Position numbers and translations under genes: made by a program. DNA of 7,791 nt from an uncultured Bacteroidales bacterium (GTDB taxonomy: Bacteria > Bacteroidota > Bacteroidia > Bacteroidales > UBA932), in NCBI GenBank assembly GCA_946614205.1, contig CAMOGR010000110.1:1-7791 (forward strand), written 5' to 3'. The notes beneath the pieces are model-generated. The model did no database searches. It saw only the letters and a program-made list of their open reading frames with translations, and was not told the origin of the DNA. Of the stretch, positions 1-7,791 are shown piece after piece; position 1 is the first letter of the stretch, and every line of letters starts with the position of its first letter.

Positions 1-1359
1 CGGCAGGCTCACGAAACTGCCGTTGTCGGTGCAGTTGACGACCGCCCAGTCGACGCTCTCGGTAAGATTGAAAGCACCGTTCTGCACTGAAGCCTTGCCG
101 CTGACGGCCTCGCCCCCGATGGAACGTACCTTGACGGAAGAAATGGATGCGCTGCCCGAAACCTTCACATTGATGACGGCAACGGGATCGGTGAAGGTGA
201 GGATATTTCCGGTTTCGGGGCTGTACGATGCATATCTGGGGTAATTGGTGAAGTTCGACTTCGTGGTGTTCCAGAACTGAGACATGGGCACGACAACGTC
301 GGTCTTTACGTTGGCGCCGTACCATTTGGAGGATCCGGAATTGAACAGTACGGCCTCGTACTTCTTGTCGGCGGCCTCGTTGACCTCGATATACCTGCGG
401 CCGTTTGCGTCGGTCTTTACGGGATATGCGGCGTCGTTTATCCTCATGCTCCAGGAACCGCTGTCGGAGAGCCCGAGTGCGTCACGCAGGCTGTTGTCGT
501 AATTGATGTAGAAACGGACCTTGCCGTTGGAGGCTATGATTGAGTTGAGTCCTTCGAGCACGCCGAAGGTCCCTCTCTTGATGGTACGGGCTTTGGCTGA
601 TACCAGTTCGGAGTCAGGCACGCCGTTGCTGTGCCTGAGGGTGATGCCGAAGCCTTTGGAAAGCTCTGCCGGCAAAAGAACGGCATAGTAGAAGTTCCCG
701 GGAACGAAGCCTCCGTCGGGCGCCTTGAGCGTAATCTCCTTGCTTCCGGCGGTGATGCCTTTGAGCACGGGTATACCGCCTTCGAATGCTACGCTGGCTG
801 TACCGGCGATGTCTTCGTTGTTGTTTCCCTTGATGACGATCTCGCTGACTCCTTCTTCGGAAAGTGCGAACTTGATGCCGCCTGCTACATTGAAGAATGT
901 CATGGTCCGGCTTTCGGACTTGGCGACGGTGGGGAAGGCCTTGCCGTCGAAAGAACCGGCGACGGCTTCCTGCACGGCAGGGACGGAAACGGAAATCTCT
1001 CCGCCTGCGCTTACTGCCGAGGCGTTGTCGGCGGGATATACGCCGTAGAAGTATGTGGAAGTTTCGCCTACGGTTCCGGCAAACGTAGCTGTCTTGCTTG
1101 CAGAGCTCTCCTTGGATGTGAATACCGCACCCGTGGTCCCTTCGCCGGCGAATACCATTATCTTGTCGCCGGCATTCCACCAGACGCTCTTGCCGTCAGG
1201 CTGTACGGCGGTGCGCGTGGCAGGATCGAGGCCCTCGCGCACTGCGACGACCGTGTCCTCTCCGGCAGGGATGACTATTTCTTCCTGCTTCTCCTTGGCA
1301 CAGGAGAATACGGCGGCTGAAGCGAATGCCAGCATCGTTACTTTGCAAAATCTCTTCAT
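1..1359 (-). CDS. Fimbrillin-like (Mfa-like) lipoprotein, 3' truncated by window edge
   Basis: This frame is open without a stop from the ATG at 1357-1359 to position 1, giving 453 N-terminal residues; the C-terminus lies outside. The signal peptide MKRFCKVTMLAFASAAVFSC places the lipidated Cys at 20, followed by A-K-E-K-Q-E-E, a charged tail consistent with surface export. Residues about 36-270 carry a classic fimbrillin-like pattern: ATRTAVQPDGKSVWWNAGDK at 47-66, VYPADN at 107-112, VPAVQEAVAGSFDG at 126-139, FFNVAGGIKFAL at 155-166, and FYYAVLLPAELSKGF at 223-237. Residues about 274-453 appear to be a further beta-rich domain; part of it (VINVKVSGSASISSVKVRSI) echoes residues about 161-190 and may be a second, degenerate copy of the same fold. 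No enzymatic motif is seen in the visible part. Such proteins are usually surface adhesins or pilus-associated subunits in Bacteroidales; the specific role here is unknown. It follows the 43-aa peptide gene by 11 nt. Confidence 0.85.
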   Translation of the reverse strand, partial: MKRFCKVTMLAFASAAVFSCAKEKQEEIVIPAGEDTVVAVREGLDPATRTAVQPDGKSVWWNAGDKIMVFAGEGTTGAVFTSKESSASKTATFAGTVGETSTYFYGVYPADNASAVSAGGEISVSVPAVQEAVAGSFDGKAFPTVAKSESRTMTFFNVAGGIKFALSEEGVSEIVIKGNNNEDIAGTASVAFEGGIPVLKGITAGSKEITLKAPDGGFVPGNFYYAVLLPAELSKGFGITLRHSNGVPDSELVSAKARTIKRGTFGVLEGLNSIIASNGKVRFYINYDNSLRDALGLSDSGSWSMRINDAAYPVKTDANGRRYIEVNEAADKKYEAVLFNSGSSKWYGANVKTDVVVPMSQFWNTTKSNFTNYPRYASYSPETGNILTFTDPVAVINVKVSGSASISSVKVRSIGGEAVSGKASVQNGAFNLTESVDWAVVNCTDNGSFVSLP

Positions 1360-1370
1360 GGCAGTCTCGT

Positions 1371-1502
1371 TTAAAAGTCCCAGTTCTCATCCACGATGTC
1401 TTCCGAGCCTCCGTCTACGAGGCTGTCACAAAGCAGGACGGGGATGTATGCGTCCACTTCGGTCTTGGGCATTTCGTAGTCCCTTCTGTTACGTTTGATC
1501 AT
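1371..1502 (-). CDS. 43-aa peptide of unknown function, WD[YF]-terminal family
   Basis: This small ORF has its ATG at 1500-1502 and TAA at 1371-1373, 11 nt before the following fimbrillin-like gene. The product begins MIKRNRRDYEMPKTEVDAYI and ends SEDIVDENWDF. It matches the 44-aa peptide at 4487-4621 without large gaps: Y-E-M-P-K-T-E-V against Y-Q-T-P-K-A-E-L, then a Leu-containing centre with D-S, an acidic stretch, and terminal W-D-F against W-D-Y. The match begins upstream of the internal Met11, which supports the first ATG as start. There is a basic N-terminus (K-R-N-R-R), one Cys at 25, and no signal peptide or membrane segment. Like its relative, it sits directly in front of a lipoprotein with a fimbrillin-like N-terminus, which suggests a functional link to that protein type. 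The function is unknown. Confidence 0.7.
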   Translation of the reverse strand: MIKRNRRDYEMPKTEVDAYIPVLLCDSLVDGGSEDIVDENWDF

Positions 1503-1527
1503 TGTTCTGACGAATATTGATTGTTGG

Positions 1528-1557
1528 GGCAGGCTCTACGGTCAGGCGGGGCCTGCC
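1528..1557 (-). promoter_or_regulatory. Inverted repeats in the widest intergenic gap (possible attenuator or weak terminator)
   Basis: The 61-nt gap 1503-1563 between the EEP gene and the 43-aa ORF is the longest in the window. It contains GGCAGGC (1528-1534) and GCCTGCC (1551-1557), a perfect 7-bp inverted repeat with a 16-nt loop. The arm 1551-1555 can alternatively pair with 1543-1547 (CAGGC/GCCTG, 3-nt loop). The two hairpins cannot form together. No T-run follows on the minus strand, so it is not a standard intrinsic terminator. No clear Bacteroidetes promoter (TTTG / TAnnTTTG) was recognised. Partial termination, mRNA-end protection or attenuation are all possible. Confidence 0.3.
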
Positions 1558-1563
1558 AGTGCG

Positions 1564-2523
1564 TTATAAGGTCATAGTGATAAGTGCAGGGTAATGGTCC
1601 GAAGGATGGCAGAACTTGCGGATTACCGAATCACGCTCCGCCGCGGGGAAGCCCTCGTACAGATATTCTGCCGATTTGACCTTATCCATCAGCGGGGGAG
1701 TGACGTAGACCATGTCTATCCTTCTCCCCGACAGCGTGCTCTTGCAGAACTGCCCCCTGTGCATGGCCTCGATGAGGTCGATGTAGGGAGTCTTGCCCAG
1801 CACATAGTCGTGGACGAGGAAAGCGGGGTCGGATGCTTCGCGCTTGTAATGGAAGTTGTCGACGGACGAAACCGTATTGAAGTCGCCTGTCATCAGCCAC
1901 ATCTGTCCCTCCGCTCCGGGAACGCTGCCGATGGTCTGCTCGCAGATGTATTTCATTTCGGCGGCGCGGAAGTAGTCTCCTCCGCGGGCGGCAGAGCTCG
2001 CCTCCTGGTCTTCTGCGCCATAGGCGTACTTGAACGGATAGGTGTGAAGCGTCACGATGTTCAGTTCCTTTCCGCCTCCGAGCTCGACCTTGGCCCAGCC
2101 GGCGCCGTGGACCACGATGATGTCTTCGCCGTTACCCGTCATGCGTTTCACGATCCTGAGCGGGTACTTTGACGTGATGACTTGCGGGAAGGTGTCACGC
2201 ACTCCGCACACCAGCGTATAGCGATGCCCGTACCGCCCGGCCAGGATGTCCCAGTTCCAGGGAAGGTACTGTTCTTCCGGCATCTGCATCTTTTCCTGAG
2301 AAGCAGTCTTGTAACGGGAGCCGGCTTCGGCCCATATGCAGATGTCCGGGTCGATTTCCTGGACGAATGCGATGAAGTTGTCGTATCCGTTCCCCTGGTC
2401 CGACCACATGCCGTTCTGGATGTTCCAGTAGAGGATTTTCAAATCCTTCCCTCCTGCACCGGAGCAGGAGAGAAGGAAAAATGAAAAGGAAATCAACAAC
2501 AGTGCTTGAAGATACTGTTTCAT
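1564..2523 (-). CDS. Endonuclease/exonuclease/phosphatase-family lipoprotein
   Basis: This encodes a 319-aa metal-dependent phosphoesterase of the EEP fold (PF03372), near the usual size for the family. The start overlaps the preceding stop (TAATG at 2521-2525). The N-terminus is a lipoprotein signal peptide (FLLSC, Cys20) followed by S-G-A-G-G-K-D, lacking the acidic tail seen in the other lipoproteins here, so periplasmic rather than surface location is possible. EEP motifs appear in order: WNIQNG at 33-38 (Asn34), WAEAG at 64-68 (metal-binding Glu66), TLHTYPF at 158-164 (His160), GDFN at 213-216 (Asp214, Asn216), RRIDMVY at 267-273 (Asp270) and PSDHYP at 307-312 (Asp309-His310). All catalytic positions look intact, so an active enzyme is expected. 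Substrates in the family include nucleic acids, inositol phosphates and sphingomyelin, and sequence alone does not say which applies. Position inside an adhesin-like operon favours an extracytoplasmic substrate such as DNA or a phosphodiester polymer. Confidence 0.92.
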   Translation of the reverse strand: MKQYLQALLLISFSFFLLSCSGAGGKDLKILYWNIQNGMWSDQGNGYDNFIAFVQEIDPDICIWAEAGSRYKTASQEKMQMPEEQYLPWNWDILAGRYGHRYTLVCGVRDTFPQVITSKYPLRIVKRMTGNGEDIIVVHGAGWAKVELGGGKELNIVTLHTYPFKYAYGAEDQEASSAARGGDYFRAAEMKYICEQTIGSVPGAEGQMWLMTGDFNTVSSVDNFHYKREASDPAFLVHDYVLGKTPYIDLIEAMHRGQFCKSTLSGRRIDMVYVTPPLMDKVKSAEYLYEGFPAAERDSVIRKFCHPSDHYPALITMTL

Positions 2524-4472
2524 TACGGTGCTACGTAAGTCAGGCCTGTAATCTTTGCTGCATTGGTAGCGGAGAATGTTCCGATGTAATTGAGGAAATT
2601 CTCGGAATCGACGCTGTACATTTCACCACCGTATACGCCTATCCTGCCGCTGACGGTGACGTCGCTGATATGGTCGAATTTGCTGCAATTGGCACAGATG
2701 AGCCCGAGGTATGAAGTGTTTGCGCCGAGTATGGTGCCGTAGTTGGCCCCGCCTTCGATATATGCTGAATCGATGTCGAGGAGAGCTGCGAGACCGCCTG
2801 CCGTCGTCTGTTTGTTGCTCGTCGTCAGATTGCCGTAGTTGACGCAGTCCACAAGTCCGCAGTTTGTCTTGAGGTAGCATACCACGTTGCCTATGCGGCC
2901 GTTGACAAAATCATTGGTCTGGTCTGCATAGTTGGTGCAGTTCTCGATGACAGTGTTGCAGTTGGCAGTGGCGAGGATGCCGCAGCTGCGGCCGACGTTG
3001 AGCGTAATCTTTCCCTTGGCCGTGCAGTTCTTTATCCTGTTGAAGACGTTTGCGCCGCTGGCCGTGGTGGCGAACCCGGCAATTCCTCCGAACTGCACTC
3101 CTGTTGCGCCGGCCTTCGTGTTCATTCCGCTTCCGCCTGTCACGGTAAGTTCGACAGTGCAGTCTTCTATGATGCTTTCGCCGTCTTCGTCGTCACTGAA
3201 CACGAAGCCGGCTATCCCACCGATGGCGAAACGCTTGTTGTCGGTGTTGTTACCATAGCTTTCGATGCTTCCCGTGACGTTTACATTGCTGATGCTGGAA
3301 GCGTAAACCGTTCCTGCCAGCACACCGGCGTCTGCTGCAGATTCAGCGCTGAAGATCACCCCGCTGCATTCGACATTGAGGTCCTTGACGGTTGCGCATA
3401 CGAGCGATCCGAAGATGCCCCAGGTGCAGCCGTTGGCGATGCTGGCGCTGCCGGCACCGAACTTTATCGTATGGCCGCCGCCGTCAAACACATCGGAGAA
3501 GGACGCTCCTTGAGGTGCGCATGCATTGTTGCCGTTCCCCGTGCTGGTAACGTTGCCTACAGGAGTCCAGGTGCTGTAGGAAGTGAGGTCGATGTCTGCA
3601 AGGAGGGCGATCTTGCCGTCGCTGTTCCTCCACTTGTCAAGAGGCTCTCCTGCATTGACGGCATCCCTGAACGCTGCAAAGTCTTCAGCGGAGGCAATGC
3701 CGCCTGAAATTGTGGCGGATGTGATGGAGACTTCCGGCATGGCCGTCAGTTGTCCAGCCTTCAGCGTCCGGGCGTTGGTGCCCTTTACCACTTTGAGGCC
3801 GTCAGTCGTCGTGAATTCAACTTCGAAGCCTTTCCCGTAAGCTCCGGGAGGGATGGAGATATAGATGTCAAGCGGAGTTGAACCGAGGGCTGTTCCCTCG
3901 CAGTCGATGACTATCGTCTGGTACGATGCGTCGATTCCTTCGGTGAGGGCGGCATCGGTATAGTTGATTCCGAAAGGACCGCTGACCTGCTCTCCGTCGT
4001 TGCCCTTGAGGGTTACGGCGCTGAGTTTCAAGCCGTCGTCTCCCGAAACAGGTATCTTCAGGACGGCAGTCAGAGGATGGAATGACAGGGAAGTCCCGGA
4101 CTCGGAATATGCGGCCAGGGGTATGTCGGTCGTCTGCTCGAGAAACAGTTCTTCGCTGAGCCAGACGGTATCGTCGTTGTAGTACAGCATTGCGGGGCAG
4201 ACCGCGCAGTACGGGGCGCTGACGGCATCGGCGAATTCGAAGCTGGCGCCCTCTCCTTCAGTATTGATTGCGCTGGAGCAGACTCCGTTGACGTCAATGG
4301 CGTCATCAGCGTCCCAGCTTACCTTGACTCCGTTTATCGCAGTCTTGGTGAGAGGGGAGAGCGTGGCCTCGAGCGTGGTCACTTTCGAGAGTTCGGGAGC
4401 AGATTCCTGCTTGGTACAGCCCACTGTGAGCAGTGCAGCGCATGCGGCTGCGGCAAGTATGTACTTTTTCAT
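2523..4472 (-). CDS. Fimbrillin-like (Mfa-like) lipoprotein with C-terminal GLUG-like beta-helix
   Basis: This encodes a 649-aa predicted surface lipoprotein. The signal peptide MKKYILAAAACAALLTVGC puts the lipidated Cys at 19, followed by T-K-Q-E-S-A-P-E. Residues about 31-250 look like the fimbrillin/Mfa-like N-terminal fold of Bacteroidales: LTKTAINGVKVSWDADDAIDV at 41-61, HPLTAVLKIPVS at 132-143, and the closing ARTLKAGQLTAMPEVSI at 234-250. Residues 257-649 form a Gly/Asn-rich repetitive region with GLUG-like units, homologous along its whole length to residues 136-530 of the BACON lipoprotein upstream. In the first 80 or so aligned columns just over half are identical by eye, with shared blocks STGNGNN, GGGHTIK, ATVKDL, ADAGVLAGTVY and YIEGGANYGTIL. 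It likely acts as an adhesin or surface-binding protein; the ligand is unknown and no enzymatic motif is seen. Its start is 14 nt after the 44-aa peptide gene. Its stop overlaps the next start by 1 nt, consistent with translational coupling. Confidence 0.88.
   Translation of the reverse strand: MKKYILAAAACAALLTVGCTKQESAPELSKVTTLEATLSPLTKTAINGVKVSWDADDAIDVNGVCSSAINTEGEGASFEFADAVSAPYCAVCPAMLYYNDDTVWLSEELFLEQTTDIPLAAYSESGTSLSFHPLTAVLKIPVSGDDGLKLSAVTLKGNDGEQVSGPFGINYTDAALTEGIDASYQTIVIDCEGTALGSTPLDIYISIPPGAYGKGFEVEFTTTDGLKVVKGTNARTLKAGQLTAMPEVSITSATISGGIASAEDFAAFRDAVNAGEPLDKWRNSDGKIALLADIDLTSYSTWTPVGNVTSTGNGNNACAPQGASFSDVFDGGGHTIKFGAGSASIANGCTWGIFGSLVCATVKDLNVECSGVIFSAESAADAGVLAGTVYASSISNVNVTGSIESYGNNTDNKRFAIGGIAGFVFSDDEDGESIIEDCTVELTVTGGSGMNTKAGATGVQFGGIAGFATTASGANVFNRIKNCTAKGKITLNVGRSCGILATANCNTVIENCTNYADQTNDFVNGRIGNVVCYLKTNCGLVDCVNYGNLTTSNKQTTAGGLAALLDIDSAYIEGGANYGTILGANTSYLGLICANCSKFDHISDVTVSGRIGVYGGEMYSVDSENFLNYIGTFSATNAAKITGLTYVAP
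2526..3704 (-). repeat. Paralogous beta-helix-coding block, copy B (in fimbrillin-like lipoprotein)
   Basis: This block codes for residues 257-649 of the fimbrillin-like lipoprotein and is the downstream partner of 4628-5812, at an offset of about 2.1 kb in the same orientation. The similarity begins at the GGI motif right after the fimbrillin-like domain, so the duplication boundary coincides with a domain boundary. Confidence 0.8.
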
Positions 4473-4486
4473 TGCTTTACAGTGCT

Positions 4487-4621
4487 TTAGTAGTCCCAGG
4501 AACCGTCTATGAGTTCGAAGTCGTCGATATTTCCGGAAAGGCTTCCGGAGTCTTCCAGAAGGCTCAAGCCCGGAGAGAATTCTCCGAGCTCAGCCTTTGG
4601 TGTCTGATAGTTGGACTTCAT
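4487..4621 (-). CDS. 44-aa peptide of unknown function, WD[YF]-terminal family
   Basis: This small ORF fills the gap between two long genes. Its ATG (4619-4621) lies 3 nt after the stop of the BACON lipoprotein (TAATTTATG), and its TAA (4487-4489) is 14 nt before the next start. The product is 44 residues, acidic, begins MKSNYQTPKAELGEF and ends FELIDGSWDY. It has no signal peptide, hydrophobic segment or Cys. It aligns with the 43-aa ORF at 1371-1502: both have Tyr, then P-K-x-E-[LV], a Leu-rich centre with D-S, an acidic tail, and a terminal W-D-[YF]. Tight packing, a filled gap and a second related copy make it likely to be real. From general recollection, short ORFs of this style are common in Bacteroidales near surface-protein genes, but I know of no assigned function. 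A role as a peptide precursor, assembly partner or leader ORF would be speculation. Confidence 0.72.
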   Translation of the reverse strand: MKSNYQTPKAELGEFSPGLSLLEDSGSLSGNIDDFELIDGSWDY

Positions 4622-4624
4622 AAA

Positions 4625-6217
4625 TTATTTTGCTACGAAGCTGAGGCCCGAAATCTTTTCGGCAGCGCCGTCGACGAGGAAGCCGATATAATCCATGAAG
4701 TTGTTTGCGTTGACGTCTTCAAGGTTGTTTGCGTCAGAACCTATCTTGCCGCTGACGGTGACGCCGCTGACATGGTCGAACTTGCTGAAGTTGGCTCCGA
4801 TGAGGCCTCTGTACTGATTGTTCGTGCAGAGGATGGTTCCGTAATTGGCACCGCCTTCGATGTAGCAGCTGTTGTCGTTCAGGAGAGCGAACATTCCGCC
4901 TGCGGTGGTTGCGGAGTCGGTGGTGGTGAGGTCGCCGTTGTTGACGCAGTCGATGATTGCGCAGTTGACTGCAATGACGCAGACGAGGCCGGCCTCGCGT
5001 CCGTTGGCGAAGTTGTTGACCTGGTTTGCGTTGTTGACGCAATTCTTGAAGATGGTTCCGGAGTTGCCGACACCGGCAAGACCTGCGCAACGGCCGCAGT
5101 CGATTGCGAGGGAACCGTTTACGGTGCAGTTCTCGATGTTGACCCGGGAGTCGTCCTTGGGAGTGGTGCTGAAGCCGCAGATGCCGCCGAAGTGTACGCA
5201 GGTTGCGCCGTTCTTGGTGTTCGCGCCGCTGTTGCCCGTGACCGCAAGGTCTACCTCGCAGTCCTTGATGACGGTGTCGTAAGATACGCCTTCTTCAGCG
5301 ATTGCAAATGCAAATCCTGCGATTCCGCCGGTGGCGAAACGCTTGCTTTCGGTCTTGGTGCCCTTTACGTTGAGTTTGCCCTTTACCTTGACATTCTCGA
5401 TGGTGCTGCTGTAAACGGTGCCGGCGAGTACGCCTGCGTCTGCGGTGGCTTCAGCCTCGAGGGTGACGTCGGCTTCGAGCGTGAGGTCCTTTACGGTAGC
5501 TTTCTGGAGGCATCCGAAGAATCCCCAGGTGTTTCCGTCGGCAATGACGCCGCTGCTGGCCTTGAAGTTCTTGATGGTGTGTCCGCCACCGTTGAAAACG
5601 CCGGTGAAGGGTGAACCCTTGGGATCGCTTGCGTTGTTGCCGTTGCCGGTGCTCTCGACAGCTCCGATAGGAGTCCACTCGCCGAAGGAAGAGAGGTCCA
5701 GGTCTGCGAGGAGCTCGACTTCACCGTTTGCATTGAGCCAGCGCGAAATTGCGTTGCCTTCGTTGACGGCGTTTACGAAGTCTGTGAACTCGGCTAGATC
5801 GGTGATGCCGCCTATGCTTGCGTTAGGGTCGATGACGGCGGTGTGTCCGAGCTGGCTGATGGGGACGTCGAGGGTCTGGCCGGAGCCGCTGAACTTGAGG
5901 ACGCCGCTGCGGGGTGCGGTGTCGGTCGCCTCGTTCTTGTAGTTGGAGGCAATCTTGAGGGTGATGATGGTGCCGTTTTCATTGCCGGCCCCGGTGTTGG
6001 GGCTTGCGGTCACCCAGTCTGGAGTGAGGACGAGCCAGCTTGTGGCGTTGGTCTTGAGAATGAGGGTCTCATCGCTGGGATTGTTGGCCGCGATGTCGCT
6101 GATGGCGGTCCTGTCTGCAGTCATCGTGTAAACGACTTCGGGTTCTTTTTCCTTACAGGATGCAATCAGTGCAGCTCCGAGGAGGAGTGCAAAAGAGGTG
6201 CGGATAAATGCTTTCAT
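4625..6217 (-). CDS. BACON-domain surface lipoprotein with C-terminal GLUG-like beta-helix
   Basis: This encodes a 530-aa predicted lipoprotein. The start at 6217 is preferred over an in-frame ATG at 6274, because it begins directly with a signal peptide (MKAFIRTSFALLLG) and avoids overlapping the upstream gene; the 20-nt leader is A/T-rich without a Shine-Dalgarno. The lipobox is I-A-S-C with Cys21, followed by K-E-K-E-P-E, a charged tail typical of surface-exported Bacteroidetes lipoproteins. Residues about 30-124 resemble a BACON domain: a WL.L.PDW core near 61-68, S-P-N-T-G-A-G at 72-78, R103-S-G, and a terminal SQLG. Residues 136-530 form a repetitive, Gly/Asn-rich region with GLUG-like units (GGIAGF, GVLAGTVY, GGANYGTIL, C.N.G patterns), predicted to be a right-handed beta-helix. 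No catalytic motif is seen. The role is probably binding or adhesion at the cell surface; the ligand is unknown. The C-terminal region is paralogous to that of the lipoprotein at 2523-4472. Confidence 0.88.
   Translation of the reverse strand: MKAFIRTSFALLLGAALIASCKEKEPEVVYTMTADRTAISDIAANNPSDETLILKTNATSWLVLTPDWVTASPNTGAGNENGTIITLKIASNYKNEATDTAPRSGVLKFSGSGQTLDVPISQLGHTAVIDPNASIGGITDLAEFTDFVNAVNEGNAISRWLNANGEVELLADLDLSSFGEWTPIGAVESTGNGNNASDPKGSPFTGVFNGGGHTIKNFKASSGVIADGNTWGFFGCLQKATVKDLTLEADVTLEAEATADAGVLAGTVYSSTIENVKVKGKLNVKGTKTESKRFATGGIAGFAFAIAEEGVSYDTVIKDCEVDLAVTGNSGANTKNGATCVHFGGICGFSTTPKDDSRVNIENCTVNGSLAIDCGRCAGLAGVGNSGTIFKNCVNNANQVNNFANGREAGLVCVIAVNCAIIDCVNNGDLTTTDSATTAGGMFALLNDNSCYIEGGANYGTILCTNNQYRGLIGANFSKFDHVSGVTVSGKIGSDANNLEDVNANNFMDYIGFLVDGAAEKISGLSFVAK
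4628..5812 (-). repeat. Paralogous beta-helix-coding block, copy A (in BACON lipoprotein)
   Basis: This block codes for residues 136-530 of the BACON lipoprotein. It is the upstream member of a tandem in-frame duplication, paired with 2526-3704. Similarity runs to the last residues (ISGLSFVAK against ITGLTYVAP). The most conserved DNA stretch is 4747-4795, which matches 2645-2693 at 44 of 49 bases by eye, including a 17-base identical run. Confidence 0.8.
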
Positions 6218-6237
6218 AAAAAATAATTTTGGGTTGA

Positions 6238-7791
6238 TTAGTGTTTTTTTCGTAAAATCATATATGTCAGGCAACTGCGCTCACCGCCCGAGTCGCAAGG
6301 ACGGCTTACGATGCTTCCGCGGGAGGTCGCCGGATTCCAGATCCACATGGAGGAGGAGCCGCCGCCGTCCATCCTGGTTGCGTTCCAGCCGCCGAGCTTC
6401 CGGGCGATGCGGAACATCTCATATCCCTTGACGCCCATGGAATACCACAGCTGACGCCCGTCTATTTCAACCAGCCATACCTTTTTGCCGTCCTCGCTTA
6501 CGATGGGATAAGTCATTGGATCGTAATTGGTAATGGTCTGGTTGGTAGTCGGAATCGTGGATGTGGCGTCATTGCCTCCGTCCATTATCATGAACATGGT
6601 AGAAGCGAGGGCTGTTATCGGAGTAGCGTCATGCCCTTCGACGCTGATGTCGCATTTGAACTCAATTGCGTCGCCAGGCTTCAATGCCGCAAATTTCGAT
6701 GCATTGCTTCCGCTCACGGCTATGCCGACCATGCCCTCCCGGGTAATGTACGGAAGGTCGGCAAGGTAGCTGCTGCGGCCGTCCAGGACGCTGACCACCT
6801 TTGCCGGTGCATACCCGGCATTGACTTTCATCGGCTCCGAGTTGTATTCGCAGATTACATATACGACATCGCGGGCCAGATCGTTGACGAGCTCGGGATG
6901 CGCCTTGTGCGGCGTGCGTACGTACCTGGACGTAAACAGGTTGACGGGCGAGACCGAAGGGGAGGAGTGCCGGAGCGTAGTGTCGTTTACCGTGTTGAAG
7001 GCATACTCGGCGCCTCCTGAGCGTATCTTCCCGGAGAAGGCTTTCTTGCCGCAGGCGGCTGTACCGTCTGCATAGACGGCAAACGCCCAGGAATGATTGA
7101 CAAGGTTCTTCACGACGGAGGGATTGTTGATGTACACAGGTTCTCCGTCCTGTACGTGGAAGCCCCTGGAAATGCCGTTGTTGGAATCGAAGAAACAGCA
7201 GTTGGTGCCGGCAAGCACCGACTGGCCTTCGCCGCGCTTGCGGGAGCAGAGCTGCGAAAGCGTCTCGCGGATGTTGAATCCGTTGTTGATGTTGCCGTTT
7301 CCGTTGGGGTTGGGGAACAGGTCGTCAGCGACGGCTGTGGCGAGTTCTATGCCGGGAACCGAGAGATCGATTTCGAGTACGAACATGTGCCGGGGGACCT
7401 GCGTGAAGGAGTAATGGTAATATGTCGCTCCTTCGTGCAGCCTGATGCTTTCGACAGTCTCCCAGTCGTAATAGGAATCCGCCGTCCAGTCGATGTAGTT
7501 ATCCTCGATTACGTATCCGCTGGAGGCGTTCATCATCGAGTTCAGAATGGCGTCTGACGGCGCTGCAGCCGGGTTGGAGACGTATTTGTCATAGTCTCCG
7601 ACATGGCCGTTTCCTGTATTTCCGGTGAAGTTTTCCTTGACTTTGTTGAAGGAACAGCCCCAGCCGGGACCGAGGGACCCCGATATCTTGCCGAGAACTG
7701 CCCCTTTGTTGGTGCATCTTGAGATGACTCCGTCGTTGTGCCCGACCAGGCCGCCTTCCTTGCATGGAATGCTGACCAGCAGGTTGCCGTT
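6238..7791 (-). CDS. GLUG-motif protein with C-terminal phosphodiester glycosidase (DUF2233/NAGPA-type) domain, 5' truncated
   Basis: The reading frame is open from the window edge to the TAA at 6238-6240, so 517 C-terminal residues are visible and the true start lies outside. The ATG at 7536 is internal, because coding continues upstream without a stop and includes a GLUG motif (visible residues 14-32, GLVGHNDGVISRCTNKGAV). A linker of about 60 residues follows. The rest matches the DUF2233/NAGPA family (PF09992): G-T-N-C-C-F-F-D near residues 195-202, RGFHVQDGEPV near 209-219, WAFAVYADGT near 235-244, and the hallmark MDGGGSSSMW at 474-483 close to the C-terminus. Characterised members include the human mannose-6-phosphate uncovering enzyme, which removes GlcNAc from a phosphodiester. 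Bacterial substrates are mostly unknown, so the reaction here is inferred from family. The protein is probably secreted, but its signal peptide is not visible. The next gene starts 20 nt downstream, which suggests one operon. Fusion of the enzyme to adhesin-like repeats suggests the repeats hold it on the surface or on its substrate. Confidence 0.85.
   Translation of the reverse strand, partial: NGNLLVSIPCKEGGLVGHNDGVISRCTNKGAVLGKISGSLGPGWGCSFNKVKENFTGNTGNGHVGDYDKYVSNPAAAPSDAILNSMMNASSGYVIEDNYIDWTADSYYDWETVESIRLHEGATYYHYSFTQVPRHMFVLEIDLSVPGIELATAVADDLFPNPNGNGNINNGFNIRETLSQLCSRKRGEGQSVLAGTNCCFFDSNNGISRGFHVQDGEPVYINNPSVVKNLVNHSWAFAVYADGTAACGKKAFSGKIRSGGAEYAFNTVNDTTLRHSSPSVSPVNLFTSRYVRTPHKAHPELVNDLARDVVYVICEYNSEPMKVNAGYAPAKVVSVLDGRSSYLADLPYITREGMVGIAVSGSNASKFAALKPGDAIEFKCDISVEGHDATPITALASTMFMIMDGGNDATSTIPTTNQTITNYDPMTYPIVSEDGKKVWLVEIDGRQLWYSMGVKGYEMFRIARKLGGWNATRMDGGGSSSMWIWNPATSRGSIVSRPCDSGGERSCLTYMILRKKH

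Follow-up and report, generated by a model that had tools for sequence, protein, structure and literature searches.

Related systems and the micropeptide locus

SecM, TnaC and MifM are nascent-chain arrest or regulatory peptides that are made just upstream of the gene to be controlled. The precursors of lasso peptides and other ribosomally synthesized and post-translationally modified peptides (RiPPs) carry Y-x-x-P near the N-terminus and have a conserved first half and a variable second half. Leader open reading frames (ORFs) that act with re-initiation end approximately 10–20 nt before a structural gene, and a study of leader genes places the peak of these gaps at 10–11 bp in Actinobacteria, with a peak also in Bacteroidetes (PMC4833913). 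The subunits of the type V pilins FimA and Mfa1 contact one another via an exchanged strand, according to PMC7616799. The element described here is a family of micropeptides encoded directly upstream of genes for lipoproteins with a fimbrillin-like N-terminal domain (FimN), two copies of which lie in a 7,791-nt stretch of DNA from an uncultured Bacteroidales bacterium (contig CAMOGR010000110.1, positions 1 to 7,791; the whole stretch is referred to as the window).

The micropeptide resembles a leader ORF in ending shortly before a structural gene, but it belongs to a conserved family tied to one downstream class, and its C-terminal tail is also found on large upstream proteins. Unlike SecM, TnaC and MifM it has no fixed distance between motif and stop codon, no RNA structure at the junction and no signal sequence. 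The FimN partner domain is predicted to have the fimbrillin-like fold of the type V pilins, whereas the tail is acidic and Gly-rich, often sits on a micropeptide of its own that lacks an export signal, and is missing from the classical Mfa_like_1 genes. The likeness to lasso and RiPP precursors is not accompanied by a family match above cut-off, and the occurrence of the tail on large lipoproteins is a further difference. Literature searches, which covered few subscription papers, found no published description of the micropeptide–FimN pairing, and the available parts of PMC13376575, PMC7903761 and PMC7324362 make no mention of fimbriae or pili.

Relation and conservation of the two micropeptides

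A sequence-only reading of the window had proposed two related short ORFs of 44 and 43 amino acids (aa), located 11–14 nt before lipoprotein genes. Both were present in the ORF list on the minus strand, with gaps of 14 nt for micropeptide A and 11 nt for micropeptide B. The features of the two modules are as follows.

4487..4621, minus strand: micropeptide A, 44 aa, MKSNYQTPKAEL...GSWDY (ORF list; syntenic homologue at L001:5984-6118)
4490..4546, minus strand: micropeptide A, acidic tail at aa 26-44 (sequence; family comparison)
4473..4486, minus strand: the 14 nt between the stop codon of micropeptide A and the start of FimN lipoprotein 1 (window sequence)
2523..4472, minus strand: FimN lipoprotein 1, 649 aa, with a lipoprotein signal, an N-terminal domain of fimbrillin-like type and GLUG motifs
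1371..1502, minus strand: micropeptide B, 43 aa, MIKRNRRDYEMPKTEV...ENWDF (ORF list; syntenic homologues at L001:9100-9231 and in L030)
1374..1421, minus strand: micropeptide B, acidic tail at aa 28-43, LVDGGSEDIVDENWDF (L001 and L030 have nearly the same tail)
1360..1370, minus strand: the 11 nt between the stop codon of micropeptide B and the start of FimN lipoprotein 2 (window sequence)
1..1359, minus strand: FimN lipoprotein 2, truncated where the window ends (row 2 of FimN profile A5)

A single BLASTP comparison aligned micropeptides A and B over 43 columns with 33% identity (E 6e-6), in agreement with the proposed relationship. The closest syntenic locus used, L001 (uncultured Bacteroidia bacterium isolate RUG12551), is 65% identical to the window over its best segment and has the same gene order with both peptides in place (5984-6118 and 9100-9231). 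Because L001 keeps both peptides at the same places, the micropeptide ORFs do not occur by chance. The second FimN protein of L001 (9242-12406) is the homologue of FimN lipoprotein 2 and has a C-terminal Exo_endo_phos domain. Both peptides are also found together with FimN genes on a single contig of genome G085.

The ratio of nonsynonymous to synonymous substitution (dN/dS) of the syntenic pairs was 0.34 (window–L001) and 0.22 (L001–L085) for peptide A, and 0.37 (window–L001), 0.54 (window–L030) and 0.41 (L001–L030) for peptide B, while the synonymous sites of the window–L085 pair of peptide A were saturated. A pooled dN/dS of 0.29 is biased low, as its pairs were picked at ≥50% identity; the syntenic pairs were not picked in this way. 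The ratios, none of them near 1, are below 1 and selection acts at the peptide level. Selection on the RNA rather than on the peptide was rejected, as synonymous change exceeds nonsynonymous change. Codon use in the tails is broadly like that of the remainder of the peptide, with the Gly codons of the tail leaning to GGT.

When genomes were searched with profiles, 45 of 61 in the L001 genus sample (profile A2, E≤0.1) and 91 of 249 in its family sample (profile A3, E≤0.01) contained the peptide, with up to at least 28 copies per genome in the latter. The peptide was present in 13 of 247 genomes at the level of the order and in 8 of 395 at that of the class; each of the four counts includes the genome of L001. 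Profile A3 contains 82 of 95 peptides, 13 near-duplicates or odd ones having been excluded by hand. At E≤10, a search of a protein database turned up 78 relatives, few of them named, and those as 'hypothetical protein'; none of the 78 contained a Pfam domain. No Pfam or NCBIfam model fits the micropeptide family, with single weak matches only, and a phmmer search with peptide A alone as query returned only the self match. The micropeptides form a previously unannotated family that extends well beyond the window.

Association with downstream FimN genes

A search for relatives with tabulation of the next gene, as suggested by the sequence-only reading, gave a preferred association of the conserved peptides with FimN genes. 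Using a cross-validated profile trained on the other half of the data, the next gene was FimN-type at 83 of 90 peptide loci (30 from the genus search and 60 further places taken in rank order among the matches listed) compared with 5 of 99 background genes. The seven misses were a contig end (L041), a fragment of 19.4 bits (L049), a FimN gene whose picked start was 132 nt off (L113), a thioredoxin-like lipoprotein (L094) and three loci where no gene came next (L058, L137, L120). Further family loci had FimN next in 27 of 29 cases, or 23 of 25 when four places already seen were left out (L264, L268, L280, L287), the two misses (L279 and L292) being followed by a secreted protein. A count of 17 of 17 in genome G001 mostly repeats places already seen.

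The gap between the peptide stop and the FimN start had a median of 13 nt with quartiles of 11–18 nt, and was ≤35 nt at 74 of 80 peptide–FimN junctions compared to 27 of 48 junctions between the upstream gene and the peptide. Stop and start codons are therefore as close as is expected of translational coupling or re-initiation. When the association was read in reverse, a micropeptide preceded 22 of the 30 best FimN matches per genome, 31 of 60 FimN genes that had been chosen for having no listed peptide, and 6 of 142 non-FimN genes; these six all came from loci that the peptide search had supplied. A later set had 30 of 68 FimN genes with a micropeptide. The counts of 182 and 19 of 273 FimN genes derive from loci partly picked for a peptide or tail and include duplicates. 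A function linked to the fimbrillin-like partner, as originally suggested, is supported by the conservation of the peptides, their dN/dS of 0.22–0.54 and the downstream gene at these loci, and an unannotated micropeptide family gains a strong, testable genetic partner.

Structure and classification of the FimN partner

The FimN domain of the window gene 2523-4472 was modelled by AlphaFold2 with a pLDDT of 90.2. The six best Foldseek chains belong to five Bacteroides structures annotated 'putative cell adhesion protein' (3t2l, 4k4k with two chains, 3ufi, 3up6 and 4h40), which we take to be fimbrillin-like proteins, with TM scores of about 0.3–0.54 and of about 0.5 for the best three entries. 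The FimN N-terminal domain is thus predicted from its model to have a fimbrillin-like fold, as had been proposed for the lipoprotein downstream of the peptide. A search of the PDB with the FimN sequence profile gave no match, and Pfam Mfa_like_1 (PF13149) was matched by 5 of 82 partner proteins (E≤0.01).

Classical Mfa_like_1 genes were preceded by a micropeptide in 1 of 25 readable loci, and this loose match is probably spurious (30 loci were fetched, 2 of which lay below the family cut-off and were left unread; 25 of the remaining 28 were readable). A general link of the peptide to all fimbrillins was rejected on this count. The partners of the peptide are FimN lipoproteins, many of them long and built of several domains, and the link does not extend to the classical Mfa_like_1 fimbrillins. 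All genomes of the genus sample (61 of 61) had FimN-type matches, and these lipoproteins are very abundant there; at least about 45 FimN-type genes per genome were found in G001, G063, G069, G085, G090, G105 and G106.

Anatomy of the peptide and tails on large proteins

Y-x-x-P is present in 108 of 108 peptides, which is uninformative because this motif served to recognise them. A second motif, [LIVM]-C-x-[ST], occurs in 79 of the 108, and the distance from the Y of Y-x-x-P to [LIVM]C is 16 in 67 of these 79. The last 16 residues have a median net charge of -4 and contain no K or R in 81% of peptides, and an aromatic residue lies within the last six residues in 102 of 108. The peptide can be described from its sequence as an N-terminal half of fixed spacing followed by an acidic tail that varies and carries an aromatic residue close to its end. 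The structure model of the micropeptide is mostly extended (pLDDT 76, pTM 0.22), and the micropeptides have no signal peptide.

Several FimN genes without a micropeptide lie directly after a large ORF with a tail-like end, for example ...SSQPGGNEGIGYDQY and ...AAADNEGYGSEDFEW. In the first set, a tail rule fitted 5 of the 22 large ORFs that lie immediately upstream of FimN and 0 of 215 others; the rule was written after this set had been seen, and some of the 22 ORFs are doubtful. Applied unchanged to a later set, it fitted 8 of 14 large ORFs before FimN and 0 of 63 other ORFs after correction by hand, or 7 of 13 and 1 of 64 without correction, where one control lay 18 nt before a mis-picked FimN start. 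Independent tail events are fewer than counted because some carriers are orthologous: in the later set L294, L308 and L312 are orthologues of one another and L296 is an orthologue of L161, which was used for the rule. L309 and L336 are neighbours that share an operon. The ends of L309 and L355 look tailed yet fail the rule.

A lipobox-type start was identified on the tailed carrier in 10 of 12 longer stretches, being not found in L370 and cut off in L372. The carriers include BACON/Big_2 proteins and FimN proteins, and they occur in runs in which a micropeptide is followed by a FimN protein with a tail and a FimN protein without one (L366, L368, L371), or a tailed lipoprotein by a tailed FimN protein and a further FimN protein (L365). 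Judged on these sequences, the shared element is a tail at the end of whichever ORF immediately precedes a FimN gene, and the findings suggest that the tail is the important part.

Possible roles of the tail

Conservation of the peptides, association with FimN genes, short gaps, tails on large ORFs and covariation of tail and FimN type are the observations to be explained. We tentatively favour, at somewhat less than even confidence, the explanation that the tail is a C-terminal signal for the next FimN gene that acts in cis at the stop/start junction. The micropeptide would be a stand-alone carrier of the short acidic tail that goes with the FimN gene immediately downstream; where a large ORF precedes the FimN gene the tail would be fused to it, and otherwise a dedicated micropeptide with its N-terminal half of fixed spacing would supply it. 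The nascent tail, as the last residues before a stop codon a few nt from the FimN start, may affect termination or the hand-over of ribosomes to that start (translational coupling). The ribosome and the cytosol would be the only certain common place for an unexported micropeptide and the C-terminus of an exported lipoprotein, and a ribosomal role is the most economical because the micropeptide lacks an export signal while the tailed carriers are mostly lipoproteins.

Several observations weigh against this cis explanation. No RNA structure was detected at the junction (mean folding z +0.18, n=80), so that coupling of the hairpin type is not supported; with the median gap of 13 nt, hairpin-based coupling and transcription attenuation were both rejected. 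Arrest peptides are not known to have such a variable distance from motif to stop, and an arrest motif at a fixed distance from the arrest site was not found in the peptide family: the tail varies in length, with 28–53 residues from the Y to the C-terminus and 8–33 after [LIVM]Cx[ST]. The strict tail rule fits just 43 of 88 micropeptides, and FimN genes that lack both the peptide and the tail are numerous (38 of 68 in the later set had no micropeptide). Three orphan micropeptides have no downstream lipoprotein gene (L058, L137, L120), others precede different exported proteins (L094; L012, L279, L292; L005), and outside the family FimN was next in 1 of 12 weak class-level matches. The pairing that had been proposed as consistent is thus a preference with exceptions. 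The covariation of tail and FimN could also reflect protein contact or plain linkage.

Contact is the basis of a docking tag, in which the tail, acting as a cytosolic chaperone or as a surface assembly peptide, binds the FimN domain of the next protein and so orders the subunits; this is the main rival, and we regard it as possible but somewhat less likely than cis action. The tail correlates with the FimN domain (0.125–0.134, P 0.001–0.003), and this persists when the signal peptide is allowed for (partial r 0.116, P 0.013). The tails of 13 hand-chosen, de-duplicated large carriers, compared with those of 78 micropeptides, resemble the tails of micropeptides before the most similar FimN genes (P 0.0005–0.0045), and the tail was absent in 4 of 4 FimN proteins whose next gene was not of FimN type (L366, L368, L371, L372). 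The strand exchange by which type V pilins assemble (PMC7616799) is a further point in favour. However, the covariation is weak (0.10–0.15), and the correlation of the tail with the downstream signal peptide (0.15, P 0.001) is as strong as that with the domain, as linkage predicts. A binding partner also has no need to sit a few nt upstream, and the micropeptide has no signal peptide while most tailed carriers are lipoproteins. Docking explains the covariation better than cis action, but does not explain the missing export signal.

The N-terminal half is uncorrelated with the tail (r -0.03) and correlates weakly with the downstream signal peptide (P 0.035). Its relation to FimN was mixed, with no correlation in two tests and a small excess in a third (0.268 vs 0.238, P 0.0033). 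The nearest relative was the same in peptide and FimN space in 29 of 75 pairs where about 1 was expected, as for a module inherited together. A matching code, in which the tail of each upstream partner is matched to the next FimN domain, operon order gives the order of surface assembly and the micropeptide starts the chain, appears unlikely. A tail carried directly before a FimN gene on either a 45-residue peptide or a large surface protein would represent either a new form of coupling by a nascent peptide or a code by which surface lipoproteins are assembled.

If the micropeptide were an ordinary leader ORF, any short upstream ORF would raise re-initiation at the FimN start and the amino acids would matter little. 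The short gaps resemble those reported in the leader gene study (PMC4833913), but the amino acids are conserved with dN/dS below 1, the Y-to-[LIVM]C spacing is fixed and a similar tail occurs on large ORFs, which makes this explanation improbable. Most improbable is an independent small protein or RiPP-like precursor, with the N-terminal half as leader, the tail as product and its position before FimN inherited by linkage: fixed N-half and variable tail do resemble leader and core, and the out-of-family relatives follow large exported proteins with no FimN gene next, but fused tails on large lipoproteins are unexpected and NCBIfam RiPP families were above cut-off for 0 of 82 members, modification enzymes not having been searched for. 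A curated RiPP or lasso precursor family was rejected, the single match among the 82 members being a weak lasso-peptide match that covers the initial 9 residues of A and scored 11.6 bits, where the cut-off is 33.

Exceptional loci and relatives outside the family

The orphans L058 and L137 are orthologous and 92% identical. The lipoprotein that follows the micropeptide in L094 is thioredoxin-like and has no FimN domain; a similar protein in L168 bears a tail and precedes a FimN gene. In L005/L025 (G001:C77:4221-4343) the micropeptide gene contains an in-frame TAG and is followed by an EEP gene and then FimN. In L091 (G105) an intact relative lies directly before a FimN gene, and the start of this gene seems to be joined to that of EEP.

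Approximately 7–8 of the 12 non-family peptides lie 0–57 nt after a large protein whose end resembles, by eye, a sorting tail of the type IX secretion system (T9SS); the loci with such neighbours are L236, L244, L249, L250, L237, L072, L076 and L080. The NCBIfam T9SS model matched 2 of 5 tested proteins, below cut-off. These peptides may be distantly related and serve a different role, or they may form a look-alike group.

Neighbouring genes of the window

All genes of the window are on the minus strand, in the order NAGPA protein, BACON/GLUG lipoprotein, micropeptide A, FimN lipoprotein 1, EEP lipoprotein, micropeptide B and FimN lipoprotein 2. The remaining features are as follows.

1564..2523, minus strand: EEP lipoprotein (PF03372), without a preceding micropeptide (ORF list, Pfam)
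4625..6217, minus strand: BACON/GLUG lipoprotein, without a preceding micropeptide (BACON and GLUG both below the Pfam cut-off)
6238..7791, minus strand: GLUG/NAGPA protein (a phosphodiester glycosidase), truncated where the window ends (ORF list, Pfam)

The absence of a micropeptide before the BACON and EEP genes agrees with the initial description of the window. The start of the EEP gene and the stop of the preceding FimN gene share base 2523, and the gap between the NAGPA and BACON genes is 20 nt. BACON scored above the Pfam cut-off in the L001 homologue of the BACON/GLUG lipoprotein, and in L001 the gene series shared with the window comes after a SusD gene and a BACON-NAGPA gene. Together, the window and the L001 operon (63-12406) resemble a SusCD-type locus aimed at a phosphodiester, the components being SusD (L001), the NAGPA glycosidase, the separate EEP protein and the EEP domain fused to the second FimN protein (L001).

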